Below are positions 6,140 to 46,004 of a stretch of 64,000 nt of DNA, one piece after another (position 1 is the stretch's first letter; each line of letters starts with the position of its first letter). This DNA is from Thermosipho melanesiensis BI429 (GTDB lineage: Bacteria; Thermotogota; Thermotogae; Thermotogales; Fervidobacteriaceae): contig NC_009616.1 of assembly GCF_000016905.1 (NCBI RefSeq), positions 1,240,001 through 1,304,000 on the forward strand. The letters are read 5' to 3'. A program made the translations under genes and the position numbers. Below the pieces are notes generated by a model. It searched no databases. It was not told where the DNA came from and saw nothing but the letters and a program-made list of their open reading frames with translations.

Positions 6140-6363
6140 ATATTCAATACAAAAGTAACGTAAGGGATCCAAGAGGAGAGACTATAGCAAGGGTACTAAG
6201 GGAAGAAAATGATATTCCAGTGGAAAGTATTAGAATAGGGAAGTCTATTCATGGTGAAATATTGGCAAATGATAAAGCTGAAGCAGAAAGAAAGGTTGTT
6301 GAAGCATGTGAAAAGTTGTTGGTAAATCCCGTTACAGAAGAATATGAGGTGAAGATAGAATGA
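6115..6363 (+). CDS. purS: FGAM synthase small subunit, PurS
   Basis: An 82-residue protein with the PurS pattern of a ferredoxin-like fold: VDIQYKSNVRDPRGETI, then ESIRIGKSIHGEI. It bridges PurQ and PurL in the three-part formylglycinamidine synthase. It starts inside the purC end with GGAGG about 14 nt upstream, and its TGA overlaps the purQ ATG. Confidence 0.93.
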   Translation: MQKFKFVVDIQYKSNVRDPRGETIARVLREENDIPVESIRIGKSIHGEILANDKAEAERKVVEACEKLLVNPVTEEYEVKIE

Positions 6364-6992
6364 GAGCAGGGGTGATTGTTTATCCTGGTTCAAATTGTGA
6401 CAGAGATGCATATTATGCGCTGGAATTGGCAGGATTTAAAACATATTATATAACAACAAGGGATAATTTAGATTCTTTTGATTTGATAATATTACCTGGT
6501 GGTTTTTCTTATGGAGATTACTTAAGACCAGGTGCGGTGTCTGCTAGAGAATCACTTGCTGTCAAAGAATTTGCAGAAAATGGTGGAATGGTAATAGGGA
6601 TTTGTAATGGTTTTCAGATATTGGTTGAAATGGGATTGTTATCTGGTGCTCTTTTACAAAACGATTCTGGAAAGTTTATTTGTAAGTTTGTTGAACTTGA
6701 GATAGTGGATAATACAACTCCTTTTACTATGTTATACAAAAAAGGTGAAAAAATAAGGCTTCCTGTAGCACATGGATTTGGTAGATATGTATCTGTTGGT
6801 AATCCAAATGTGGTTTTTAAGTACAAAGAAAATATTAACGGGTCCGATGATTTTATTGCAGGTATATACAATGGAAATGTTTTAGGAATGATGCCTCATC
6901 CTGAAAGAGCAGTAGATGAGTTTTTGGGAAGTGTTGACGGATTAAAACTTTTTAAGTCAGTTTTTGAGTATATTAGAGGTGGTAATAGATGA
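6360..6992 (+). CDS. purQ: FGAM synthase glutaminase subunit, PurQ
   Basis: Class I glutamine amidotransferase of 210 residues. The nucleophile Cys82 lies in GICNGFQ and the His-Glu pair in MMPHPERA. It supplies ammonia to PurL through the PurS-containing complex. Both ends overlap neighbours by ATGA, indicating coupled translation of the subunits. Confidence 0.93.
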   Translation: MRAGVIVYPGSNCDRDAYYALELAGFKTYYITTRDNLDSFDLIILPGGFSYGDYLRPGAVSARESLAVKEFAENGGMVIGICNGFQILVEMGLLSGALLQNDSGKFICKFVELEIVDNTTPFTMLYKKGEKIRLPVAHGFGRYVSVGNPNVVFKYKENINGSDDFIAGIYNGNVLGMMPHPERAVDEFLGSVDGLKLFKSVFEYIRGGNR

Positions 6993-8761
6993 AATATTTA
7001 AATATTTTAGAAGAGAAACTTGAAAGAAAGGCAACTTTTACCGAAAAGGAAGCTTTCACAGTGATGTGGAGTGAGCATTGTGGTTATTCACATACAAAAA
7101 GGTATATAAAACAATTGCCGCTAATTAGTCTGGAATCTGGAAATGCAGGGCTTGTTTCCCTTAATGAAGACTATGCACTTGCTTTTAAAATTGAGAGTCA
7201 TAATCATCCAAGTGCAATTGAACCATATAATGGTGCTGCAACTGGAGTGGGGGGAATAATAAGGGATGTACTTGCAATGGGAGCAAGACCTACGGCAATT
7301 TTGGATTCGTTACATATGCATAAGATTATTGATGGAATAATTGAAGGTATTGCTGATTATGGAAACTCAATTGGAGTACCTACTGTAGGTGGAGAACTTA
7401 GGATAAGTGATGCGTATAGATACAATCCATTGGTTAATGTTATGGCAGCAGGTATTGTAAAACATAAAGATATTATCCCATCTAAGGCAATGTCAAAAGG
7501 TCAGGTTATTATTGTATTTGGTGGTGCAACTGGAAGAGATGGGATTCATGGTGCATCTTTTGCTTCTGAGGATTTAACTGGGGAAAAGGCAAATAAGCTA
7601 TCTATTCAAGTAGGTGATCCATTTGCTGAAAAAATGCTTATTGAGGCATTTTTAAGAATGGTTGAAGAAGGTTTAGTTGAGGGTGCCCAAGATTTGGGTG
7701 CAGGTGGTGTTTTGTCTGCAACATCTGAATTAGTAGCAAAAGGTGGATTTGGTGCGGTTATACATTTGGAAAGACTTCCTTTAAGAGAGCCAGATATGAA
7801 TCCTGTTGAGATTTTGATTAGTGAAAGTCAGGAAAGAATGGCCGTGATAACATCGCCTGAAAAGGCAGAAAGAGTATTAAATATAGTAAAAGACCATTTG
7901 TTGTACGGTGCTATTTTAGGTGAAGTAACAGATGATGGAATTTATCATGCAATGTATAAAGGTGAAACAATACTAAAAATTCCAGCGCAATTGTTATCAA
8001 ATGCGCCAGAAGAAGAGATTTATGATTTTTTTAGTGAATCTTTGCCAAAAAATGTTTCGATAACTTTTAGTGATGTGGATGCATCGCAGGTGTATACCCA
8101 ATACGATCACATGGTAGGAACTGATACAGTTCTTTTACCAGGTTATGGTCCTGCTGTAATGAGGATAAAGGGAACGGATATATTTTATTCACTCCTTACT
8201 CATAGTAGAGCTGATATTGGTGATAAAAGTCCATATTGGGGTTCATTTATTGCTGTTTTAGAAAGTGTTAGAAAGACTTTGTCAGTAGGTGGAGAACCTT
8301 TTGGGATTACCGACTGTATAAATTATGGAGATCCTGATGTTGAACCGATGGGGCTTTCGGCTATGATGAAAGGGTTGAAAGATGCTTGTGAATTTTCAAA
8401 TGTTGGTGTTGCAAGTGGAAATGCTTCACTCTATAATACCAATAAAGGTATACCTATCCCTCCAACTATGGTTATTGGAATGGTTGGTAAGGTAAAAAAA
8501 GTTGTAAAACCTAAAAAGGGAGATATATATTTAATTGGATGGGAAGATTTTTCCTTGGAAAGAGAGAAGATTTTGTGGGGTGAAATTAGAAAACAAGTAT
8601 CTAAGGGTAATTTTGTTATTTCTTCGACTAGATATGATAAATTGACTTATTTAAAAAATTTGAACTTAAAACTTCCTCCGTTAAAACATTCTCCTATTCA
8701 CCAGCTCGTTGTGGTTATAGGAAATAATGTAAGAAGTGACCTTCCTATTAGAAAGATTTAG
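6989..8761 (+). CDS. purL: FGAM synthase synthetase subunit, PurL (small type)
   Basis: The 590-residue protein has the small-PurL features WSEHCGYSH, KIESHNHPSA, the glycine-rich GAATGVGG and VGGEL loops, and two AIR-synthase-like halves. It is at the short end for the small PurL type, and no N-terminal or glutaminase domain is fused. It is the last gene of the operon; purF, purD, purM, purN and purH are not here. Confidence 0.93.
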   Translation: MKYLNILEEKLERKATFTEKEAFTVMWSEHCGYSHTKRYIKQLPLISLESGNAGLVSLNEDYALAFKIESHNHPSAIEPYNGAATGVGGIIRDVLAMGARPTAILDSLHMHKIIDGIIEGIADYGNSIGVPTVGGELRISDAYRYNPLVNVMAAGIVKHKDIIPSKAMSKGQVIIVFGGATGRDGIHGASFASEDLTGEKANKLSIQVGDPFAEKMLIEAFLRMVEEGLVEGAQDLGAGGVLSATSELVAKGGFGAVIHLERLPLREPDMNPVEILISESQERMAVITSPEKAERVLNIVKDHLLYGAILGEVTDDGIYHAMYKGETILKIPAQLLSNAPEEEIYDFFSESLPKNVSITFSDVDASQVYTQYDHMVGTDTVLLPGYGPAVMRIKGTDIFYSLLTHSRADIGDKSPYWGSFIAVLESVRKTLSVGGEPFGITDCINYGDPDVEPMGLSAMMKGLKDACEFSNVGVASGNASLYNTNKGIPIPPTMVIGMVGKVKKVVKPKKGDIYLIGWEDFSLEREKILWGEIRKQVSKGNFVISSTRYDKLTYLKNLNLKLPPLKHSPIHQLVVVIGNNVRSDLPIRKI

Positions 8762-17707: not shown

Positions 17708-18166
17708 TTAGAATGAAACAGTTGGTTGGAAAGTGAGGCTTAGATAGACCGTGTAGTCTCCGGCTGGAAGATCTGGATCCACGCTGTTAATTTGAAAACT
17801 TATGTTATATGTACCATCACTAATTGGTGAAGTTGGTGCAAATGGTACACCATCTTTTAGAACTATAAAATCTGCGTCAACCCACGCATCTAAACCATTA
17901 AAATCTGCATAAGGTATAACTGCAACGTCTGCGTTTGAATCTAATGTAAAGTTTAATACTCCAACCTCTCCAAATTCCTGGTCGTAATCACATATATCGA
18001 ATTCAGAGATTAACCATTCATAATCTAAATCCATCCATTGATGCACGTAAATTGTTATGGAACTGTCAATTGTATAACTTTCAAATTCACATCCTGGTAC
18101 ATGTACATTTTCTGCTAATAAAACTAATGCAAATAAACTTAATAAACCTACCAATATCTTTCTCAT
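17708..18166 (-). CDS. Small exported beta-rich protein, module A protein 1
   Basis: The 152-residue protein has a clear signal peptide ending near LLAEN. The mature part is predicted all-beta, with C26 in VPGCEF, a conserved VHQWMDLDYEW block, a second cysteine in FDICDY, a DSNADV strand and a C-terminal PAGDYTVYLSLTFQPTVSF edge. Its neighbour (18189-18767) shares the pattern: Cys, QW.DL.W, ICD, DSNA, DP(G/D)L, PAG.Y, PTV(S/T)(F/W). The final strand resembles fimbrial SCPU-type or WxL-type domains, but no family is certain. ATG follows GGAGGGGAAATT. A decayed paralogue lies at 20537-21001. Confidence 0.7.
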   Translation of the reverse strand: MRKILVGLLSLFALVLLAENVHVPGCEFESYTIDSSITIYVHQWMDLDYEWLISEFDICDYDQEFGEVGVLNFTLDSNADVAVIPYADFNGLDAWVDADFIVLKDGVPFAPTSPISDGTYNISFQINSVDPDLPAGDYTVYLSLTFQPTVSF

Positions 18167-18188
18167 AATTTCCCCTCCTTAGATTTTT

Positions 18189-18767
18189 TTACCAAGTTAC
18201 TGTAGGATAAAAAACAATTCTTACGGGTAAGTGATAAATTCCGGCAGGTGTTTCTAAACTACCGGGATCAGATGTTACAGTGTTTAGCGTAAAAAGAATA
18301 ACACCATTCATTGCTTCTGGAAGCCATACGGGAAGTGATGTATCTGTTCCCATCCTTGTTAAGTCTCCTAAGTTATAGTTAAATTGGAAATAGCTTTCTT
18401 CGTTTATTGCGTCAAAAGACTTTACAAAGAAGTATATAGAGATATTTTCCAGAATATCACCAAGCTCATTTCTAAATCTTGGATCAGGAAAGTCAATGCT
18501 TATGTTTAAACTTGCGTTGGAATCATAGCCAACGGATAACAAGACAAAACCATCATCATAGTACAATTCATTTGTTTCTTTGTCGCAAATTACAAACGGT
18601 GTTGCATCCCATGTGAGGTCTAACCATTGGTGAACACGTATATTTATTTCATTTGATAATTCCAAACTTTCCCAGCTGCATCCTGAAGCATGTATGGTTG
18701 TGTTGGATGTGGCAAATGATAATGTGAAAAATAATAACAATAATGTAGCAATGAATTTAATTTTCAC
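18189..18767 (-). CDS. Exported beta-rich protein, module A protein 2
   Basis: About 192 residues starting at a GTG 5 nt after GGAGGGGGAG; an upstream GTG (18785) would place the ribosome site inside the gene. After a signal peptide ending near SFATSN come a Cys in ASGCSW, VHQWLDLTWD, FVICDKET, DSNASLNIS, a longer middle part, and PAGIYHLPVRIVFYPTVTW at the C terminus. It is a larger relative of the protein encoded just downstream, and both are probably made from one transcript. Function unknown; a surface or fibre subunit is a reasonable inference. Confidence 0.7.
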   Translation of the reverse strand: MKIKFIATLLLLFFTLSFATSNTTIHASGCSWESLELSNEINIRVHQWLDLTWDATPFVICDKETNELYYDDGFVLLSVGYDSNASLNISIDFPDPRFRNELGDILENISIYFFVKSFDAINEESYFQFNYNLGDLTRMGTDTSLPVWLPEAMNGVILFTLNTVTSDPGSLETPAGIYHLPVRIVFYPTVTW

Positions 18768-18841
18768 TTCTCCCCCTCCTTTCACTTATATTTGGGACAA
18801 CATAAATATAATAGAATAAAGAAACTGCAAAAATACAGAAG

Positions 18842-18906
18842 TTGAATAATATTTCCAATCAAAAAAAATATATTTATTATTCAATTTTATATTTATATGT
18901 TATAAT
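18842..18906. promoter_or_regulatory. Divergent control region between the exported proteins and the SARP regulator
   Basis: A perfect 9-bp inverted repeat TTGAATAAT (18842-18850) / ATTATTCAA (18876-18884) lies upstream of an extended -10 TGTTATAAT (18898-18906) for the plus-strand regulator. The repeat may be an operator for the regulator. It is not kept in the equivalent region of module B (21602-21759), although an AAAATATATTTA block is. Confidence 0.5.
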
Positions 18907-18923
18907 AATTTTGGAGGTGAAGA

Positions 18924-19766
18924 ATGTACATACAAACATTTGGAGATTTTAAAATTAATGGAAAGTTTATTACTTTATCAAAAAAAGAAATAGAATTGTT
19001 GGTATATTCTATAATTAAAAATCCATATGCTACAATTGAAAATTTAATTGAGAACGTATGGGCAGGATTTATTCAACCAAGCAGGAATGATGTGGGAACG
19101 TATTTTTCAAAAATTAACAAAAAGATTAATGAGTTTTTTGTAAGGCTAAGGATAAAAAACGGAAAAGTTATAGTTGAAGGAAAAGTAGAGTTAGATACGA
19201 AGCTTTTTGAAAAAAACTCTCGGGATTTTCTAAATGATAATTTAAAATTGTTTGATAAGATTTTAGAACTGTACAAAGGTCCATTTTTAGGTGGTATAGA
19301 TTCTGTTTGGGTAGAAAATTACAGGGAATATTTTGAGGAATTGTTTTTTGAAATGATGTTGGTAATGATAAAAGTAGAAAACAATGCATCAAGAAGGTTG
19401 AAAATTTTAGGTAATTTGGTGAATTTGTGTCTTGATTTAGAAAAAGTGAATGATATTTTAAATTTTGTTAGAAAAATAGAGTTTTCATATCAAAGCTATG
19501 TAAACAGAGATATATTTGATTATTTATATGAAAAAGATAAGAATCTAAGACATTCAAGATACATAAAATTGATTTTGAAATTAAAAGAAGCAAATGAACT
19601 TTTATTTAAAATAAGAAGAGGAGATGTAATTTATAAAGAAAGTGATAAGATTTATTATATTTTACTTGAGACAAGTGGAAATGATGTAAATACTGATATA
19701 AAAAAGTTTAGTTATAGGTTAGTTAATATGGGAGTAAAGATAAAATATATAGGTATAGTTAATTAA
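18924..19766 (+). CDS. SARP-type transcriptional regulator (winged helix plus BTAD-like domain)
   Basis: The 280-residue protein begins MYIQTFGDFKINGKFITLSK, then a helix-turn-helix region with LLVYSIIKNPYATIENLIENVW, SRNDVGTYFSKINKKI and a wing, as in the OmpR-like domain of SARP activators. A helical bacterial transcriptional activator-like domain follows, with LELYKGPFLGGIDSVWVENYR. No sensor or ATPase domain is attached. ATG follows GGAGGTGAAGA. It diverges from the two exported-protein genes and probably controls them. A frameshifted paralogue is at 21760-22603. Confidence 0.72.
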   Translation: MYIQTFGDFKINGKFITLSKKEIELLVYSIIKNPYATIENLIENVWAGFIQPSRNDVGTYFSKINKKINEFFVRLRIKNGKVIVEGKVELDTKLFEKNSRDFLNDNLKLFDKILELYKGPFLGGIDSVWVENYREYFEELFFEMMLVMIKVENNASRRLKILGNLVNLCLDLEKVNDILNFVRKIEFSYQSYVNRDIFDYLYEKDKNLRHSRYIKLILKLKEANELLFKIRRGDVIYKESDKIYYILLETSGNDVNTDIKKFSYRLVNMGVKIKYIGIVN

Positions 19767-19865
19767 AAAATTTCTCTGCTAGATGCACTGAACCCAATAA
19801 ATGAGACACATAAAAAAACACCTCCGGAAGTGATAAAATATAAATACTTTTGGAGGTGTTTTTCA

Positions 19866-20040
19866 TTGGCAAAGAAATGGCAAAAATTCAAAAAGTATTC
19901 TTCTGAGTTAAAATATCAGGTTATTAAACTTTTCATTGAAGAAAATCTTCCTGAAAAATTATTGCTTTTCTTTTTGGTATTCCACCAGATAGAGTTTGTC
20001 TTTGGATTAATATAGAAAAAATAGATAATAAGCTCAAAAA
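19866..20040 (+). pseudogene. IS150-type orfA remnant
   Basis: TTG start followed by MAKKWQKFKKYSSELKYQV and IKLFIEENLPEK, the typical helix-turn-helix start of IS3 OrfA. A frameshift near 19966 moves the continuation, FGIPPDRVCLWI, into another frame. Confidence 0.75.
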
Positions 20041-20470
20041 GATTTAAAAGCAAAAGACCGTTTGAAAAGTTTGTAAGTGATATAACCTAAGTAAAAACAA
20101 TTGATGGAAAATGGGGTTTGTATAATAATGAAATAATAGAATATTCAATAGGTAAAAATAATAATTTGTAACTAGTAGATAATACAATAAAGAGATGGTT
20201 AAAAAGTGGGAAATATAGAAAAGGAGGTATATTACATACAGATAGAGGATTTCAATACACACATATGTTGACAGCAAAGATGTTAAAAGAAAAAGGAATA
20301 ATCCAAAGCATGTCAAGAAAAGGTGTACCACAAGATAATGGACCAGCAGAAAGTTTTTTCAGTCATCAAGCCAATAGAAGAATATATACGATTCTACAAT
20401 AAAGAAAGAACCAGGCAAGATTAAAAAACATGGCTCCGGTGGAATACCGAAACCATGCTGTTTGAAAAGT
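20041..20470 (+). pseudogene. IS150-type orfB (DDE transposase) remnant
   Basis: Fragments in several frames include FVSDIT (first Asp region), GGILHTDRGFQYT (second Asp), IIQSMSRKGVPQDNGPAESF (Glu region) and IEEYIRFYNKERTRQ with a following NMAPVEYRNHAV. Internal stops and a missing N-terminal half show it is dead. Confidence 0.8.
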
Positions 20471-20536
20471 GTATAGTTATTTTTTTTATCCGTTTCACTT
20501 TCGGGGGAAGTCCAAAATAGCAAAGAGGTTTTGTTC

Positions 20537-21001
20537 TTAGAATTCAATTGTTGGAATGAAGGTAAGTACAATACTGACTATGTATTCTCCAGCTGGTAAA
20601 TCTGGATCTACACTGTTAATTATGTAACTTATATTATATGTCCCATCTTCAATTTGTAATTGTGGAGCGAATGTGATTGGATTACCATCTTTTGTTATTT
20701 TAATTTCTCCAGAAACTTTTTCAGCTAAAAGCCCAGAATCTACAAATAAATCAATATTAACATCAGCATTTGAATCTAATTTAAATGAAAGTAAATCAAT
20801 TTTAGTAAATGGTCCTTTGTAATCAAAAATATCAAAGCTATTGAGTTTCCATTCATAAGTGATGTCCATTCATTGATAAACGTTAACAGTAATGTCAGTA
20901 CTTATTCTATAGCTTTCACTGTTTGCGACATGAACTTCAGTTGGTTCTGCTAAAGTAATTAATGCGAGTAAACTTAACAATACAACCAATAACTTTTTCA
21001 T
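20537..21001 (-). pseudogene. Module B copy of exported protein 1, broken by a nonsense codon
   Basis: From ATG at 21001 (after GGAGGGAATTTTT) the frame encodes MKKLLVVLLSLLALITLAEP as signal peptide, then VHVANSESYRIST and VYQ followed by TGA (20870-20872) where module A has Trp (QWMDL). The frame then continues to the normal end at PAGEYIVSIVLTFIPTIEF. TGG to TGA is a one-base change. Both cysteines of the module A protein are absent here. Restart at the ATG right after TGA is possible but would lack a signal peptide. Confidence 0.8.
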
Positions 21002-21029
21002 AAAAATTCCCTCCTTAAATTAAAAATTT

Positions 21030-21601
21030 TTAAAAAGTTACTGTTGGTTGAAAATTAATAATTACAGGCAGACAATAAACTCCAGCAGGTGTTTCTAAAT
21101 ATCCAGGATCGGATGTTAGCGTGTTTAAAGTAAATAGAATACAACCATTTTTAGATTGTGGTAGATCTACAGGTGAATCAAAAACCCCATAAGTATTAGC
21201 TTGTCTAAAGAATAACTTGCTTGAAAATAACTGTTTTCATTAGTAGAGATGTCAGATTTTACAAAGAAAAAAATTACAATATTTTCCAGAGCTTTCCCAA
21301 AACTGTTTTTGAACGTACCATAAGGGAAATCTACTGATACTTTTAGTTCGGAATTTGAATTATAGTTTATTTCAAGAAATTTGAAACCATTATCAACGTA
21401 TTGTACATAAGTTTCTTTATCTCGGATATTGAGAGGTGTAGAATTCCATGTAATATCGAACCATTGGTAGACTCTTACATCGATGTCATTAGATAAAGTA
21501 AAGTTTGTCCAATCGTTACCGGATTTGTGAACAGAAGTTGTTTGAGCATAAGAAATAAGTAAGACAGAAAAAAGTATGATTATAACAAGTTTTTTTCTCA
21601 A
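21030..21601 (-). pseudogene. Module B copy of exported protein 2, frameshifted
   Basis: TTG start after GGAGGTGAATT, signal peptide (KKLVIIILFSVLLISYAQ), then VHKSGNDW, VYQWFDITWNSTPLNIRD and on to a frameshift near 21179-21188 in an AAAAACCCC run. The other frame restores LPQSKNGCILFTLNTLTSDP and ends PAGVYCLPVIINFQPTVTF. Both module A cysteine positions (GC and ICD) have changed, to GN and IRD, while two new cysteines appear near the C terminus. Confidence 0.8.
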
Positions 21602-21759
21602 AATTCACCTCCTTTCTTTCGTAGCTTCCAGTTCCATTATTATGGTAATAAAATTTTTAAAAAATAATTTAAAAACCAATAAAGAAATTAGTAAAAAATA
21701 TATTTAAATTGTAATTAAATGGTAAAATATTCTTTAGAAAGGAAATAGGGGTGGTAGTT

Positions 21760-22603
21760 ATGTATATAAAGACTTTTGGTGGATTTAGCATTGAGAAAAA
21801 TTATACTGATTTTACGAAAAACAAAATAGAAATATTTATTTATTCAGTAATAAAAAGAAATTACATTAATGTTGAGAATTTAATAAATAATGTGTGGTTT
21901 GAAAATGACAATAAACCTCTAAAAAAAGATATAGCAGTTTATTTTTCGAAAATAAATAAAAAGTTAAAAAATTATTCTGTAAGGTTAAGAATTAGAAATG
22001 TAAGAGTTATTTTAGAAGGAAAGTTAGATATAGATACTGAACTATTTGAAAGTATAGCTAATAAATTTTTTGAAACAAATGATTTAAATTTATTAGATGA
22101 GATTTTAAAAATATATAAAGGTCCGTTTTTATTAGAAACTGATTCTTTATGGGCTGAAAGTTATAGAAAATATTACGAAGAGATTTTTTTGAAGTATTAA
22201 CAACTGCTCTGAAATTGGAAAAAAATTTTCAACGAAGGGTTGATATATTGAGAAAAGTTGTAAACTTGTGTAATGATATTGAAAAAAACAAACGAGTTAA
22301 TAGATTTTGTAAAAAAATTAGAGTTTTTATATAAGAGTTATGTTAACAAGGAATTATTTGATTTTTTGTATGGAAGGGATAAAAGTTTGAGAAATCCAAG
22401 GTATACAAAGGTGATATTAGAATTAGTTGAAAAAAGAGTTGTTGTTTAATTTGAGAAAGGGAGATATTGTTTATAAGGAGACGGACAAGTTATATCAAAT
22501 ATTGATGGAAAGTAATGAAAATAAAGAGGAATCTGTAAGAAAATTTATTGAGAGGTTAAAATCACAAGGAATAAAAATAAAAAAATTTTCTGTAATAAAA
22601 TAA
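21760..22603 (+). pseudogene. Module B copy of the SARP-type regulator, frameshifted
   Basis: ATG 21760 opens MYIKTFGGFSIEKNYTDF and runs through the winged helix and IYKGPFLLETDSLWAESYR to a stop at 22198-22200. The homologous continuation is found in other frames: VDILRKVVNLCNDIEK, LEFLYKSYVNKELFDFLYG, then LRKGDIVYKETDKLYQILM and an end at 22601-22603. At least three frameshifts are needed (about 22190, 22285, 22435). The DNA-binding part is still intact and could in principle be made. Confidence 0.85.
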
Positions 22604-22605
22604 AA

Positions 22606-22621
22606 CTCCCCAGGTGGGGAG
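22606..22621. terminator. Terminator between the module B regulator and the secretin operon
   Basis: CTCCCC / GGGGAG with an AGGT loop; TTTTT follows on the plus strand and TTTTATTTT on the minus strand, so it can serve both converging units. Confidence 0.75.
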
Positions 22622-22625
22622 CTTT

Positions 22626-23912
22626 TTACCATGATATACCTATTCCTGTTCCGAAATTGGATTTGGAGTCTATGGAAAATTTTGATTCGAAATTTAGAAA
22701 CTTTAAAAGTATTTCAAAAGAGAGAAGTTTGTTTGAATCAATGTACGTACTGAAATTTGTTTTCAGATTTTCAAAGTTAAATTCAATACCTAGCCCTGCT
22801 TTTAAGAGTAGGTTATTTAATATACTATCAAAATTTATGTTGGAAAATTCAAAATTTGAATTTGCAATTAGTTTTAGATAAAACGGATTTAAATTAAGTG
22901 TATCTTGTAACAAAAAGTAAAGTTTGTCAACAGTTGAAATATTTGTATACGCTCCTATTGTAAAGTTTTTATTTAAGTTAAAATTTGTGCCTAAGTAATA
23001 TTCATCATTTTTGTAAATTAAAAATGTTTCAAGCTCGTTAAATGATATTGATAGCGAAAAAGTTTGTGAACTTTGATATGTAATTGAGATTTTGTTGGAA
23101 GTATTTTTAGTTAGTATGTAGTTTTCTATAGGTTTTAACTTTTTTGTTGTTATTAGGACAATAAATTTTCCGAATTTTCCATTTAATATATTTTTGTATT
23201 CTCCTTCTTTAAATGGAATTTGGAAGTTAACTCCATCTTTATCCTTAGTTATTGAAAAATTTATTTCCTTTTCGTTAGTTGTTGCTTTTATGTTTATATG
23301 ACCCGTTGATTCAAAATTTATGTTGTTTCCGGTAAAGAAACCGCTGGAATTTGTTATAAATAAAGCTTTTGAATTTACAATAGAGTATATATTATCATTT
23401 AAATTGAATTTTTCAATTTCTTCATTTGTAAGATAATAAACTATATAGGAAATTGTTAAGTTTTCCGCTTTGCTATCCAACATTTTTAATTGTTTTTTGT
23501 AATAATTCCACTTTGAGTCTGGACAATAGACAATTATGCTTTCCGGTGTAGTATAAATATTTGGAATGTTTATGTATTTTATTATTTCTTCTGAGGACCT
23601 GTTTAAAGGATAATATACATGTGATTTAAAATATTCAATCATTTTCGGCGAAATTACAATGTAAATATTATCCTTTTTTTCATAATAATAATCAAAATTT
23701 GATAGTATTATTTTTAATGCAGTTTCCAGATTTACGTTATATAACTCAACATTAACTATGCCGTTAATATCATTTGGAAATATAATAGTTTTGTTATACA
23801 TTTGACCAAGTTTTATCAATACATCTTTTATATCTTCGTTTTGAAAGTATATATCTACTGATAAATACAAAGATGAAAGTAGAATTAAAAATATAATAAG
23901 TATTTTTTTCAT
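22626..23912 (-). CDS. Hybrid protein: secretin-type N-domains joined to a predicted outer-membrane beta-barrel
   Basis: 428 residues. A signal peptide (ending near SLYLSVD) is followed by an STN/N0-like domain (DIKDVLIKLGQMYNKTIIFP, VELYNVNLETALKIIL) and an N1-like domain (YINIPNIYTTPESIIVYCP) that align with the secretin encoded upstream. The secretin core signature is absent. From about residue 230 the sequence becomes amphipathic beta with alternating aromatic and polar residues and ends FGTGIGISW, an aromatic C terminus as in outer-membrane barrels. Last gene of a three-gene ATGA-coupled operon. Function unknown. Confidence 0.65.
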   Translation of the reverse strand: MKKILIIFLILLSSLYLSVDIYFQNEDIKDVLIKLGQMYNKTIIFPNDINGIVNVELYNVNLETALKIILSNFDYYYEKKDNIYIVISPKMIEYFKSHVYYPLNRSSEEIIKYINIPNIYTTPESIIVYCPDSKWNYYKKQLKMLDSKAENLTISYIVYYLTNEEIEKFNLNDNIYSIVNSKALFITNSSGFFTGNNINFESTGHINIKATTNEKEINFSITKDKDGVNFQIPFKEGEYKNILNGKFGKFIVLITTKKLKPIENYILTKNTSNKISITYQSSQTFSLSISFNELETFLIYKNDEYYLGTNFNLNKNFTIGAYTNISTVDKLYFLLQDTLNLNPFYLKLIANSNFEFSNINFDSILNNLLLKAGLGIEFNFENLKTNFSTYIDSNKLLSFEILLKFLNFESKFSIDSKSNFGTGIGISW

Positions 23913-25018
23913 TTCATATCACCTGCCCATTTAGCTTCTAAAGATATTATAATGATTTTCTTATTATTTTTTATTTCATTAGTTTTAAATAAATTTCCTA
24001 TTATAGGTAAATCTTTTAATCCAGGTATACCGCTTTCAATATTATTTGTCGTTTCAAACGATAACCCAGCTATATAGTAATGTTTATTATACTTTAGATC
24101 AAGTGAATTTGAGAATGTTAATCCTATTGTCTTATTGCTAGGGGAAAGTGCTTCCGCTCTAGCAGTTAGATTTAATGAAACATGATCAACAAAAACTGTT
24201 CCGCTTATTTCTATTTCATTTAGAAGTTTTTTTTCTATTACTTTATCATTAGATAATGTAAAGTCAATTGTTGTATATGCAGAAATTTTAGCACTTTCAT
24301 TTGCCTTAAGAAAAATAGTTCCATTCGTTAAGATTTTTGCTTTTCCAGAGCTTATTAATGCGGATATAATTGCAAAAAGATTTGTATCCATAAGGTCTAA
24401 GGAAAGTTGTAAGGCGTTGTTGTTATAACTTACCTTTAGAGTAGTTGTTTCATCGTTGGATGAAAATTCTACTCCAAATTTTCTAAGATCTTCTTCGTCA
24501 ATTTCATACAGTTTAATTTTTATTTCTGCAATGTGAGATTTTTTATCTATTAGATTTATTATTTCAGCAATTTGTGATGCAATTTTTGGTGGAGCATTTA
24601 TTAGTAATTCATTTTTGGAAGCAGTTGGATATATGTAGTTTTTTAAAACATTTGGTAGTGCGTTAGAAACATTTTCAAAGGTAACATAAGATAATTTTAT
24701 AATGTACTTGTTTGAAATTAGGGAAAAATTTGGATCGTTAGGATTGGCAGTTCCAACAAAATAGATATTATCTATTTTTTTCCAATAATATCCTAAAGGC
24801 AACAACATGTAATCAAGTGCTTTTTCTATTGTTGTGTTATATAGTTCAATTGTTATAAACCCTGTTAGAGAAGGACTGTATATTATAGTTATACCTTCTT
24901 GCATTGCAAATTGGCTTAGTGCATCTCTGATGTCAGTTTGATAAAAATACACATCAACACTAAATGATAATACTGAAACTAAAACGATTATTAAAAGTAT
25001 TTTTTTCACTGATCTCAT
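23909..25018 (-). CDS. Compact secretin (GspD/PilQ-like outer-membrane channel)
   Basis: 369 residues, much shorter than PilQ or GspD. A signal peptide precedes an STN/N0 domain (DIRDALSQFAMQEGITIIYS, IELYNTTIEKALDYMLLP), one N1/NolW-like domain (NVLKNYIYPTASKNELLINA), and a secretin core ending with the diagnostic GIPGLKDLPIIGNLF and IIIISLEA strands. It should assemble into a ring in the outer sheath membrane. ATG overlaps the stop of the chaperone-like gene, and its stop overlaps the hybrid gene, so the three are made together. Confidence 0.8.
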   Translation of the reverse strand: MRSVKKILLIIVLVSVLSFSVDVYFYQTDIRDALSQFAMQEGITIIYSPSLTGFITIELYNTTIEKALDYMLLPLGYYWKKIDNIYFVGTANPNDPNFSLISNKYIIKLSYVTFENVSNALPNVLKNYIYPTASKNELLINAPPKIASQIAEIINLIDKKSHIAEIKIKLYEIDEEDLRKFGVEFSSNDETTTLKVSYNNNALQLSLDLMDTNLFAIISALISSGKAKILTNGTIFLKANESAKISAYTTIDFTLSNDKVIEKKLLNEIEISGTVFVDHVSLNLTARAEALSPSNKTIGLTFSNSLDLKYNKHYYIAGLSFETTNNIESGIPGLKDLPIIGNLFKTNEIKNNKKIIIISLEAKWAGDMK

Positions 25019-26418
25019 CTCCCAATTTCTTTTGTATTTGTGAATTTATCATTTCCGTATGGTTTAAAAAGAATAAACGTACTATTTTTAACAATATCAT
25101 TAAAAGCAAAATCTAATTTTATGCCTTTTTCCTCTTTAGGAAAGATTAAGAATTCATCTGTTAAATCAGTTGTTTGCAATCCAGTTTTTCTAATTATTTT
25201 AGTTATTAATATTGTGTTTCCCGTATTTTTGATATTTATTGTAAAAGTATCGGTAGCTACATTGGTAATTTCTGAAGTACAATCAGTTATTAAATTTCCG
25301 TATCTTAAAATGACTTTTGGTCGGTTAAATAGAATTGCATTTTCGTTATTTGATTTAAACTCAAAAATGTTATCCCCATCATTCAAAGTTGTTTCTCTAC
25401 TGTCAAATTTTATAAATCCGTTTATTTTTGAATAGGGTGATAATCGGAGTTTTTTAGGGAATATTTCCATAGCTTTGTTTTTAGTAGATAAACTTATCTC
25501 ATACGAATTTGGTGATAGGTTTTGGAAAATAACTTTTGCGTTTTTTATTTTTGAATCTATATTTAGCAGTATTAATTCAGGATTAATAAGTAATGCGTTT
25601 TTACTGTTCTTGTATTTTTCAATTTTCATTTTAGATGAAGCAGTTACTCTAAGGCCTTGTGAAACACCATCTATTTGAGCTTCAAATGTCCCATTTGGAA
25701 ATATATAAGGTACAAAATATTCAAACTTTACCGTTCTTTCTGGAAAAACTATAAAGTCAGAATTTGATATGGGAATGGATGTAATAATCCTATTTATTGC
25801 TCTTGATATTAAACGTATTTCTCCATTTAGTGCGAGAACAGCATTGCCTTCATTTTCGATTGCTATTTCAATAACACTTCCAAAGTTTCCATATTTTTGA
25901 ATAAGAGATTTAGAAGCATCTGCTGTTAGGTCGTAAACTTTTAAATCTTTTATTCTAGGTCTCATTATTTTTGATTTTGGGAAATCAAGAATAATTAAAG
26001 AGATGTAATCAAAAACAGTTTCAAACATACCTCTTTTTTCACCTTTTTGTTTAAAATGTATTGCACCAAAAGCTTGAGCTCCGTCAAAGTTGTTTGGTAT
26101 ATTTATTTTTATAGGATAATCTATAACCTTACCAGGTTGCAATGTTAGTTCTGTGGATTCCAATGTAATCCAATTTTTGATGCTATATTTGTACTCATCT
26201 TTTGTATCATATAAATAATTTGTACCTTCGATTATAAAATCCGAAAGTTCTATTATGACTTCTGCAGCTACAGGTGATTGATTTGCTACTTGAATTGTAA
26301 TTTCTGTATTATCAAGATTGGGTGTGATGTTTATTCTGTTTACGAGTGGATAGATAGTAATAGTAAAGTTAATAATTGAAAATATAAAAATGAAAATTAA
26401 TAAAGCCACCTTTTTCAT
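25015..26418 (-). CDS. Exported chaperone-like protein with Ig-type domains (PapD-like or DUF916-like)
   Basis: 467 residues with a signal peptide and all-beta domains. The first 130 residues follow the PapD/DUF916 pattern: ITIYPLVNRINITPN, ITIQVANQSPVAAEVIIELS, NWITLESTELTLQPGKVID, then a FGAIHFKQ strand. Two or three further Ig-like repeats follow; no membrane anchor is seen at the C terminus. Such proteins hold beta-sandwich subunits (pili) or interact with WxL-type surface proteins. ATG 26418 follows GGAGGGAAAACTT; the earlier TTG lies before this site. First gene of the secretin operon. Confidence 0.6.
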   Translation of the reverse strand: MKKVALLIFIFIFSIINFTITIYPLVNRINITPNLDNTEITIQVANQSPVAAEVIIELSDFIIEGTNYLYDTKDEYKYSIKNWITLESTELTLQPGKVIDYPIKINIPNNFDGAQAFGAIHFKQKGEKRGMFETVFDYISLIILDFPKSKIMRPRIKDLKVYDLTADASKSLIQKYGNFGSVIEIAIENEGNAVLALNGEIRLISRAINRIITSIPISNSDFIVFPERTVKFEYFVPYIFPNGTFEAQIDGVSQGLRVTASSKMKIEKYKNSKNALLINPELILLNIDSKIKNAKVIFQNLSPNSYEISLSTKNKAMEIFPKKLRLSPYSKINGFIKFDSRETTLNDGDNIFEFKSNNENAILFNRPKVILRYGNLITDCTSEITNVATDTFTINIKNTGNTILITKIIRKTGLQTTDLTDEFLIFPKEEKGIKLDFAFNDIVKNSTFILFKPYGNDKFTNTKEIGR

Positions 26419-26549
26419 AAGTTTTCCCTCCAATTTTTTGTTCTTTTATTATTATATAATAAAAAATTCATTTTATTACGAATTTTAAATCATATTTATA
26501 ATAAAAAATTATAGAAAAAATTTAAAGAGATTAATAAGAGATTAATGCG

Positions 26550-43225: not shown

Positions 43226-44320
43226 ATGGTATTCAATGTGAGAAAGGAAGATAGCTTTTCCAAAAAGATGCCAATAATAAAAGTGGTAGGTGTTGGAGGA
43301 GCAGGGTGTAATGCAGTAAATAGAATGGTTGAATCAGGCATAGATAAAGTAAAATTTATTGCGGTGAATACTGATGCGCAAGTTCTAGAAGTGAGTAAAG
43401 CGGATGAAGTTGTACAAATTGGAGAAAAGTTAACCAAAGGTTTGGGGGCAGGTGGGAATCCAAAAGTTGGTGAAGAAGCGGCTTTGGAAGATAGAAAAAA
43501 ACTAGAAGAGATTTTAAGAGGAACTGATATGTTGTTTATTACAGCTGGGTTTGGTGGAGGGACTGGTACAGGTGCAACACCGGTGATTGCAGAAGTTGCC
43601 AAAGGTCTTGGGATTTTGACTGTTGCTGTTGTTACAACACCTTTCTTTTTTGAAGGTTCTCCAAGATGGAATGCCGCCATGGAAGGTATTAAGAAATTAC
43701 ATAAAAATGTTGATACGCTAATTAAAATAAGTAATAATAAATTATTGGAAGAGTTTCCTGCGGATATTACTTTTCTTGATGCATTTAAAAAGGCAGATGA
43801 GACGTTATATCATGGAATAAAAGGTATATCAGAATTAATTACCAAACGTGGAGTTATAAATCTAGATTTTGCAGATATTAAATCAGTGATGAAAGATGCA
43901 GGTGCTGCGATGCTTGGTATTGGTGTGGGTAAAGGTAAAGATAAAGCAACTATTGCTGCAAGAAAAGCTCTTGAAAGTAAGTTAGTTGAACATCCTATTG
44001 AGAATGCAAATTCTATTATTTTGAACATTACAGCACCAAGTACATTTAAATTGCAGGAAATGCAAGAAGCTGCTGTTATAATAAGGCAAACATGTAGTGA
44101 AGATGCTGATTTAAAACTAGGAGTTAACGTTGATCCAGCACTTCCGGAGGATGAGTTAATTGTAACATTAATTGCTACAGGTCTTGAAAGAGAAGAAGAC
44201 TTTTTGTATGCACAAGATGATATACCTGCTTTGTATAAATTTGGGCTGGAGTTAATGGGAATGAATAATGTTAAGGAATACGATGTTGCCGAAGAAGGAG
44301 ATGAAGAAAAAAATGCTTGA
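43226..44320 (+). CDS. ftsZ: Cell division protein FtsZ
   Basis: 364 residues. The N-terminal GVGGAGCNAVNRM and tubulin signature GFGGGTGTGATPV (G-box about residues 108-120) bind GTP; NLDFADIKSVM is the T7 synergy loop, with catalytic acids. The C-terminal tail is short and acidic after LELMGMNN. It begins 2 nt after ftsA and overlaps the ATPase gene by 8 nt. Confidence 0.96.
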   Translation: MVFNVRKEDSFSKKMPIIKVVGVGGAGCNAVNRMVESGIDKVKFIAVNTDAQVLEVSKADEVVQIGEKLTKGLGAGGNPKVGEEAALEDRKKLEEILRGTDMLFITAGFGGGTGTGATPVIAEVAKGLGILTVAVVTTPFFFEGSPRWNAAMEGIKKLHKNVDTLIKISNNKLLEEFPADITFLDAFKKADETLYHGIKGISELITKRGVINLDFADIKSVMKDAGAAMLGIGVGKGKDKATIAARKALESKLVEHPIENANSIILNITAPSTFKLQEMQEAAVIIRQTCSEDADLKLGVNVDPALPEDELIVTLIATGLEREEDFLYAQDDIPALYKFGLELMGMNNVKEYDVAEEGDEEKNA

Positions 44321-46004
44321 AAAGAGATATAAAAGATTGGGAGATATTTTAATTGAAAAAGGAATAATTTCAAATGATGATCTTGAATATGCATTGCAGA
44401 TTCAAAAAAAGACGAGAAAACCTATAGGAGAAGTTTTGGTGGAACTTGGTTTTTGTACTTGGAGTCAAATAATTAAAGCTTTAGCTGAACAATATGAAGT
44501 GCCATTTTTTGAAGAAAAGCCAAGGGTAGATCCTACGTTAAATTTAAATATGAAAAGGGAACTTATGGAAGAACTTAGAGCAATCCCAATAAGAATGGAA
44601 AATGACAAGATAGTGGTTATTACAGATAATGTATACAATGTTTCATTGATAAAGAGAAGATTAAAATTTTTATTTGGGAAAGATATAGAGATTTACCTTG
44701 TTGCTCCTGATATATTTGAAGAAGTTATGATGGATGTTTCTTCTGAAAGAACAGTAGAGTTTGAGGTTTCAGATGTTCTAGTAGAAGAACAGGAAGAGCC
44801 CCAAGAAAACTTAGAGGAAATTGAGAATGAAGATACGCCAATTGTAAGATTGGTAAATAACTTGCTTACACATGCTATAGAACTTGATGCAAGTGATATA
44901 CACATTGAACCCAGGGAAAGAAAGAATGTTGTTGTAAGATATAGAATTGATGGAGTTTTGAGAAAAATTACTGAATATCCGAAAAATAGTCATAATTCAG
45001 TGGTTGCAAGAATAAAGATATTATCAAAATTGGATATTACGGAAAGAAGAATACCACAGGACGGAAAGTTTTTTATGAATGTTAGAGGAGAGCAATATGA
45101 TTTTAGGGTTTCTACTATGCCATCTGTTAATGGGGAGAAAGTAGTAATGAGGATTTTAAAAGTGTCACAATCCAATAAAAAATTGGAGGAATTGGGATAT
45201 AGTAGTTATAACTTTGAAAGAATAAAAAGGTTAATTAGTCATCCGTATGGAATTATCTTGGTTACAGGACCTACTGGTAGTGGAAAAAGTACTACTTTAG
45301 TTGGGATAATTAACTCTTTGAATAATGAATCGGTAAATATTGTAACAGCGGAAGATCCAGTGGAATATACAATAGAAGGCGTTACGCAATGTCAGGTAAA
45401 TCCAGAGATTGGTTTAACTTTTGCAAAATATTTAAGGGCTTTTTTAAGGCAAGATCCTGATATTATAATGGTTGGAGAAATTAGAGATAGAGAAACCGCT
45501 AATTTGGCAGTTGAAGCATCTTTAACGGGGCATTTGGTGTTATCAACTCTTCACACAAACACAGCTGCGGGAGCAGTTGACAGATTGCTCAATATGGGAG
45601 TTGATCCTAGTCTCATTAGTTCCTCATTAATTGGAGTTATAGGGCAGCGACTTGTAAGAAAAGTATGTAATAATTGTGCAAAAGAGGTTGCGCTTGATCC
45701 AGAGTATGGAGCTTTTGCACAAAAAGTTTTTCCTGATATGCAATTAAATCAAAAGATAGCAGTTGGTTGTGATGCATGTAATAATACGGGATATAAAGGA
45801 AGAACTGCTATAAATGAAGTGTTAATTGTCGATGATGAATTAAGAACTTTAATAAATAAAAGAGCATCACTTTCTGAAATAACAAATGCTGCAAAAAAGG
45901 GTGGAATGAGAACTTTGTTTGAAGATGGCCTTTACAAAGTTTTAAGTGGTGAAACTACCCTTGAGGAAGTAATCAGAGTTACAGGTGGGATGTATGAAGA
46001 ATAA
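44313..46004 (+). CDS. pilB: Type II secretion/type IV pilus assembly ATPase (PilB/GspE family)
   Basis: 563 residues. An N-terminal MshEN/T2SSE_N domain (KRLGDILIEKGIISNDDLEY) precedes the motor: Walker A ILVTGPTGSGKSTT, Asp box, Walker B in DPDIIMVGEIRDRETA, His box TGHLVLSTLHTN, and a four-Cys zinc knuckle CNNC...CDAC. ATG 44313 is 12 nt from GAAGGAG; another ATG at 44301 touches that site. It lies beside ftsZ, not in a pilus operon. Confidence 0.9.
   Translation: MLEKRYKRLGDILIEKGIISNDDLEYALQIQKKTRKPIGEVLVELGFCTWSQIIKALAEQYEVPFFEEKPRVDPTLNLNMKRELMEELRAIPIRMENDKIVVITDNVYNVSLIKRRLKFLFGKDIEIYLVAPDIFEEVMMDVSSERTVEFEVSDVLVEEQEEPQENLEEIENEDTPIVRLVNNLLTHAIELDASDIHIEPRERKNVVVRYRIDGVLRKITEYPKNSHNSVVARIKILSKLDITERRIPQDGKFFMNVRGEQYDFRVSTMPSVNGEKVVMRILKVSQSNKKLEELGYSSYNFERIKRLISHPYGIILVTGPTGSGKSTTLVGIINSLNNESVNIVTAEDPVEYTIEGVTQCQVNPEIGLTFAKYLRAFLRQDPDIIMVGEIRDRETANLAVEASLTGHLVLSTLHTNTAAGAVDRLLNMGVDPSLISSSLIGVIGQRLVRKVCNNCAKEVALDPEYGAFAQKVFPDMQLNQKIAVGCDACNNTGYKGRTAINEVLIVDDELRTLINKRASLSEITNAAKKGGMRTLFEDGLYKVLSGETTLEEVIRVTGGMYEE

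Follow-up and report, generated by a model that had tools for sequence, protein, structure and literature searches.

What does a protein that joins secretin N-domains to a barrel-like C-terminus do beside a minimal secretin? We addressed this question in a window of 64,000 bases, positions 1,240,001-1,304,000 of a complete 1,915,238-base genome of the phylum Thermotogota whose named relatives are Thermosipho MAGs. Two minus-strand genes of this window define the problem. One encodes a 369-residue minimal secretin (23909-25018) with a signal peptide, N0 and N1 domains and a PF00263 core carrying IPGLKDLPIIGNLF; the other (22626-23912) encodes a 428-residue protein ending in ...GIGISW, which we term the barrel partner. 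Our analysis shows that the operon-like cluster in which the two lie, with its chaperone-like protein and pilin-like subunits, matters more than the secretin/partner pair alone.

Judged by its sequence, the 369-residue protein is a genuine small secretin with N0, N1 and core (Pfam: STN, E 1.1e-7; PF00263, E 1.6e-13 at residues 220-362). The partner likewise matches STN (E 5.5e-8), and neither PF00263 in a Pfam search nor a family-specific core HMM detects a secretin core in it, which agrees with the original prediction that only the upstream gene of the pair keeps one. In BLASTP, residues 1-86 of partner and secretin are 43% identical (E 7e-17), and partner and secretin family profiles align over 183 columns that cover N0 and N1 and run into the following domain (99.9% probability, E 1.3e-36). 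The two proteins had been proposed to align over their first 200 residues; the N0/N1 similarity is real, but it ends near residue 172. The partner as a whole comprises a signal peptide, N0-N1 (about 19-150), a soluble beta-domain (about 150-260) and a barrel (about 271-428). Overall, Pfam, the profiles and an AlphaFold2 model bear out the proposal that the gene next to a minimal secretin encodes N0-N1 fused to a C-terminus that is barrel-like and not of secretin type. Two outcomes had been named beforehand as refuting, an overlooked secretin core and a soluble C-terminal domain; neither occurred for the partner's last 155 residues, although a soluble beta-domain does intervene between N1 and the barrel. 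We also considered this middle domain of N0-N1 partners as a remnant of the secretin core, which we do not claim at hhalign E values of only 0.0055-0.064.

The AlphaFold2 model of the partner, built from 8 sequences (mean pLDDT 61), contains N0 and N1 at pLDDT about 70-90, the beta-domain at 184-259 and an antiparallel beta-meander at 273-428. Structural superposition matches the meander with closed barrels of 12 strands from outer membranes, including BrkA (Z 11.4), KdgM (Z 11.2), EspP and NalP, with an rmsd of 3.0-3.5 Å over 130-146 residues. Because residues 376-428 have pLDDT <50, strand number and closure are not firm, and we describe the C-terminus as a predicted outer-membrane-type beta-barrel of provisionally about 12 strands. 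A C-terminal aromatic residue is the usual outer-membrane signal; the partner ends in Trp, as had been read from the sequence, and 52 of 61 complete partners end in W, F or Y. Polar/apolar alternation over the last 160 residues exceeds z>2 against shuffles in 51 of 61 partners versus 4 of 62 other proteins, with a median z of 3.3 in the partner family. These aromatic ends, together with the alternation, support the outer-membrane barrel model.

An STN domain joined to an outer-membrane barrel is also the plan of the TonB-dependent transducers FecA, FpvA and PupA, and the partner could be a signalling receptor of this kind, to which a weak FecR_C match (2.4e-4, below the cut-off) might point. 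Unlike the transducers, however, the partner has an additional N1 domain and a secretin beside it, Pfam finds no plug or TonB-dependent receptor match, the barrel is modelled with about 12 strands and not 22, and half of the partners lack STN altogether. We give signalling almost no weight.

A third minus-strand gene (25015-26433) encodes a WxLIP/pilus-chaperone-like periplasmic protein of about 467-472 residues with Ig-like domains; its listed start is TTG, with an ATG 5 codons further in. The genes for the chaperone-like protein, the secretin and the partner overlap by 4 bp at each junction. We surveyed 103 Thermotogota genomes for this arrangement. The small-secretin query matched 73 of them, in part only through the large secretin of the pilus. 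For the partner query there were 51 matching genomes, some of them only through the N0-N1 of a secretin; a narrower secretin alignment yielded 7 related loci. A chaperone-like gene (470-550 residues) lies directly upstream, on the same strand, of 63 (from 54 genomes) of the 70 Thermotogota minimal secretins listed. Most of the remaining seven start at a contig end, and two, in genomes G020 and G021, have the chaperone-like gene in inverted orientation at a distance of a few kb. In all cases with sufficient contig left (40 downstream flanks, plus the loci inspected earlier), a signal-peptide protein fills the downstream partner slot. With such a protein behind the secretin and a chaperone-like gene before it, the unit is therefore chaperone-like protein, secretin and barrel partner. 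Its gene set, order, linkage and domain homologies are direct observations. A remnant of a second locus lies elsewhere in the same genome (L131:6942-7909; genome 899.9-900.9 kb), where secretin and partner are gone and a 96-residue stump of the chaperone-like gene stands with a SARP-like regulator.

The profile of the chaperone-like protein matches EfmWxLIP1 in the PDB (E 1.3e-6). PF06030, the peptidoglycan-binding domain of WxLIP, is found in 9 of 19 members (best 2.6e-8), and the window protein scores 4.8e-4, below the cut-off. Short relatives of about 270 residues from other phyla match EfmWxLIP1 at E 2e-8 and pilus chaperones weakly, all above E 0.01 (CfaA 0.015, 4ncd 0.018, EcpB 0.08). 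According to a published prediction (PMC10599100), the sandwich of WxL is completed by a hairpin strand inserted from WxLIP. From this kinship and the predicted strand insertion, it is a fair inference by analogy that the protein encoded at 25015-26433 acts as a strand-lending chaperone.

Beside the trio, two minus-strand genes encode secreted beta-sandwich subunits of 198 residues (18189-18785, C-terminal ...LETPAGIYHLPVRIVFYPTVTW) and 152 residues (17708-18166, ...LPAGDYTVYLSLTFQPTVSF), both ending in PAGxYxxxxxITFxPTVTF-like motifs. Similar small secreted proteins occur near the unit in nearly all loci inspected in full. In the model of the 152-residue subunit (pLDDT 77), the signal peptide is followed by an N-terminal extension without order and by six strands. 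Its closest folds are CanA cannulae (Z 7.8) and the Caf1, CfaB, FimI, PapK and Csu pilins (Z 5-6), although a Z below 8 may reflect a common arrangement; Foldseek gives E 4e-3 at best. Most of these nearest folds belong to fibres that assemble by strand exchange. Ten subunits gave no WxL or pilin family match in Pfam, and a PDB sequence search returned no subunit relatives. The modelled resemblance to donor-strand pilins is thus suggestive only.

A SARP-like regulator with a winged helix and BTAD, both weak matches, is encoded on the plus strand at 18924-19766, divergently from the subunits, and a relative is found again at many such loci. Between this block and the partner, positions 20540-22597 hold a diverged and decayed second subunit pair and SARP-like regulator, 67-69% identical in DNA to 17.7-19.7 kb. 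Frame breaks affect one subunit and the regulator of this copy: the homologue of the 198-residue subunit is broken across two frames (pair at 20540-21601, minus strand), and the regulator (21751-22597, plus strand) runs on in another frame. A very hydrophobic, low-complexity 95-residue ORF between the two subunit blocks (20044-20331, minus strand) is probably no gene. Elsewhere, duplicated subunit genes within one locus are nearly identical in DNA (L061:3507-4586 versus 7325-8401, 97.6%; L033:4503-4993 versus 6156-6646, 99.8%), a sign that surface subunits have recently been duplicated or have undergone gene conversion.

We propose, with a probability of roughly 55%, that the locus carries out chaperone-assisted export, and probably polymerisation, of the small beta-sandwich subunits, with the secretin in the usher's place. 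Sec would carry the subunits into the periplasm, where the WxLIP-like protein would cap them with a beta-strand of its own, in the manner of pilus chaperones and WxLIP; we infer both the chaperone and the subunit roles from predicted folds. The minimal secretin would then form a wide outer-membrane exit. As is known from autotransporters, folded subunits do not fit through a barrel of 12 strands, and the secretin is therefore a likelier exit than the partner. We found no ATPase, platform, pseudopilin or alignment-complex gene within the chaperone-secretin-partner-subunit cluster, and because neither an ATPase nor an inner-membrane platform is encoded there, the folding of subunits and the exchange of strands would supply the energy.

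The proposed pathway would work in the manner of the chaperone-usher systems (archaic and alternative, such as Csu and CFA/I). It shares with them secreted subunits, here modelled as beta-sandwiches that are incomplete and extended at the N-terminus, a putative strand-lending chaperone, an outer-membrane exit and a cluster that lacks an ATPase. It differs from them in that the usher family PF00577 has no match in a Pfam scan of the nine proteins of 17708-26433, a secretin and a secretin-derived barrel partner standing there instead, and in the additional Ig-like domains of the chaperone-like protein. The Gram-positive WxL/WxLIP (DUF916-DUF3324) clusters likewise combine a sequence relative of the chaperone-like protein with small secreted beta-sandwich partners, but the Thermotogota locus has no WxL match and a diderm setting with outer-membrane pore proteins. 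With the secretins of type II secretion and type IV pili (GspD, PilQ, HofQ), the protein at 23909-25018 shares N0, N1 and core; unlike those systems, its cluster lacks pseudopilins, ATPase, platform and alignment complex, and contains a dedicated barrel partner. The parts of the locus are thus of known kinds, and their combination appears to be new.

Instead, the type IV pilus machine, whose PilB-like ATPase gene (44268-46004) lies in the same window beside ftsA/ftsZ, might use the minimal secretin as an additional outlet; the distance of about 20 kb from the cluster is alone no bar. The pilus secretin of this genome is, however, a separate 1303-residue protein at 1.73 Mb, standing among PilM/N/O-like, PilC-like and pilin-like genes (labels assigned from size, order and sequence appearance), and we set the proximity of the PilB-like gene aside because the pilus secretin lies elsewhere. 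Moreover, in a genome of the same genus (G078) the only match to the minimal secretin is the C-terminal part of a 1306-residue protein, so that the large secretin is present there and the small one is not. A second pilus outlet is accordingly very improbable.

The exact job of the partner within the proposed chaperone-assisted export is a guess. It would be a duplicated secretin that has lost or exchanged its core and has a barrel of its own. Its probable place is next to the secretin in the outer membrane, with its N0-N1, or the core remnant of relatives, facing the periplasm. There it may help the secretin into the membrane or hold it in place, or it may take up complexes of chaperone and subunit and support the fibre at its base. 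Minimal secretins often require help in reaching the outer membrane, as established for pilotins. With this need and the strict gene neighbourhood of partner and secretin, the partner could be a barrel-type, pilotin-like assembly or anchoring factor for the secretin alone, the secretin serving some other task with no fibre involved. Such a role leaves the equally strict chaperone-like gene and the clustered subunits unexplained, and it fits poorly with four Petrotoga-like loci (L078, L079, L080, L084) in which a chaperone-like gene and an N0-N1 barrel partner occur without an adjacent secretin; we regard it as rather unlikely. In some Petrotoga-like genomes obvious subunits are absent as well, which also weighs against the proposed subunit export; in the four loci, an apparent response regulator and histidine kinase follow the pair.

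Partners in the Thermotogota slot fall into two groups, 30 of 61 with N0-N1 and 31 without, the partners of Thermotoga-type loci belonging to the latter. This division bears on the original suggestion of a mixed ring. In such a ring, secretin and partner would assemble through N0-N1 and the partner barrels would encircle or plug the pore. N0 and N1 are ring-forming domains that align strongly between the two families, and the two genes overlap, but the ring-sealing secretin core is undetectable in the partner. Moreover, because about half of the same-slot partners lack N0-N1, a mixed ring cannot be the general mode, and we consider it improbable.

In the group without N0-N1, 20 of 31 have at their start a segment that hhalign relates to the secretin core (E 6.5e-7, group alignment); such a remnant is demonstrated only in Thermotoga-type partners and in a 600-residue partner from another phylum. 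Barrel-to-barrel comparison of partners with and without N0-N1 gave E 2.7e-5 once and 1e-3 in a larger comparison, with reversed controls at about 1e-2. In an N0-N1 tree, all Thermotogota partners separate from all secretins with branch support 100/97, and they appear to have arisen as after one old secretin duplication.

The same gene order occurs in two genomes of one other phylum (L068, L137), with a cut locus in a further phylum. The partner of the two genomes has 600 residues: N0, N1 and a core, related to the secretin profile at 328 of 378 positions but without the usual lip motif, and about 230 residues more. The single such partner placed in the tree clusters with the secretin encoded next to it (support 98/90), which indicates a separate secretin duplication and not an ancestor of the Thermotogota partner. 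The chaperone-secretin-partner arrangement thus appears to have been built twice.

More tentatively, and at a little under even odds, we suggest that these loci represent an outer-membrane assembly pathway of a new class, "chaperone-secretin", whose usher function would fall to a secretin together with a dedicated barrel protein derived from a secretin. The pathway would be a main surface export route of Thermotogota, and at least one further phylum would have built its partner independently from its own secretin. Secretins are known from needle- and piston-driven machines; if the proposal is true, they can also serve a chaperone-type pathway, and a secretin duplicate can become a barrel partner. 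A link from the Gram-positive WxLIP to pilus chaperones would in turn connect two fields. In a survey of secretion systems, Thermotogae were the only diderm clade lacking every system searched for, and the authors suggested that the clade may have evolved its own (Abby et al., PMC4793230). The locus, present in most Thermotogota genomes searched, offers a concrete candidate surface export system that is testable in cultivable Thermotoga species. We found no description of it in the open-access papers searched, and likewise none of a secretin partner of the N0-N1-plus-barrel type, in keeping with the original prediction.

Three loci from other phyla (L073, L076, L077) show a further arrangement, in which a chaperone relative of about 270-345 residues adjoins a secreted protein of ~1000 residues and small secreted proteins. 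The ~1000-residue proteins have SdrD_B/CarboxypepD-like C-terminal domains, and a sequence search of the PDB brought up no usher related to them; the arrangement is possibly an undescribed usher-like system.
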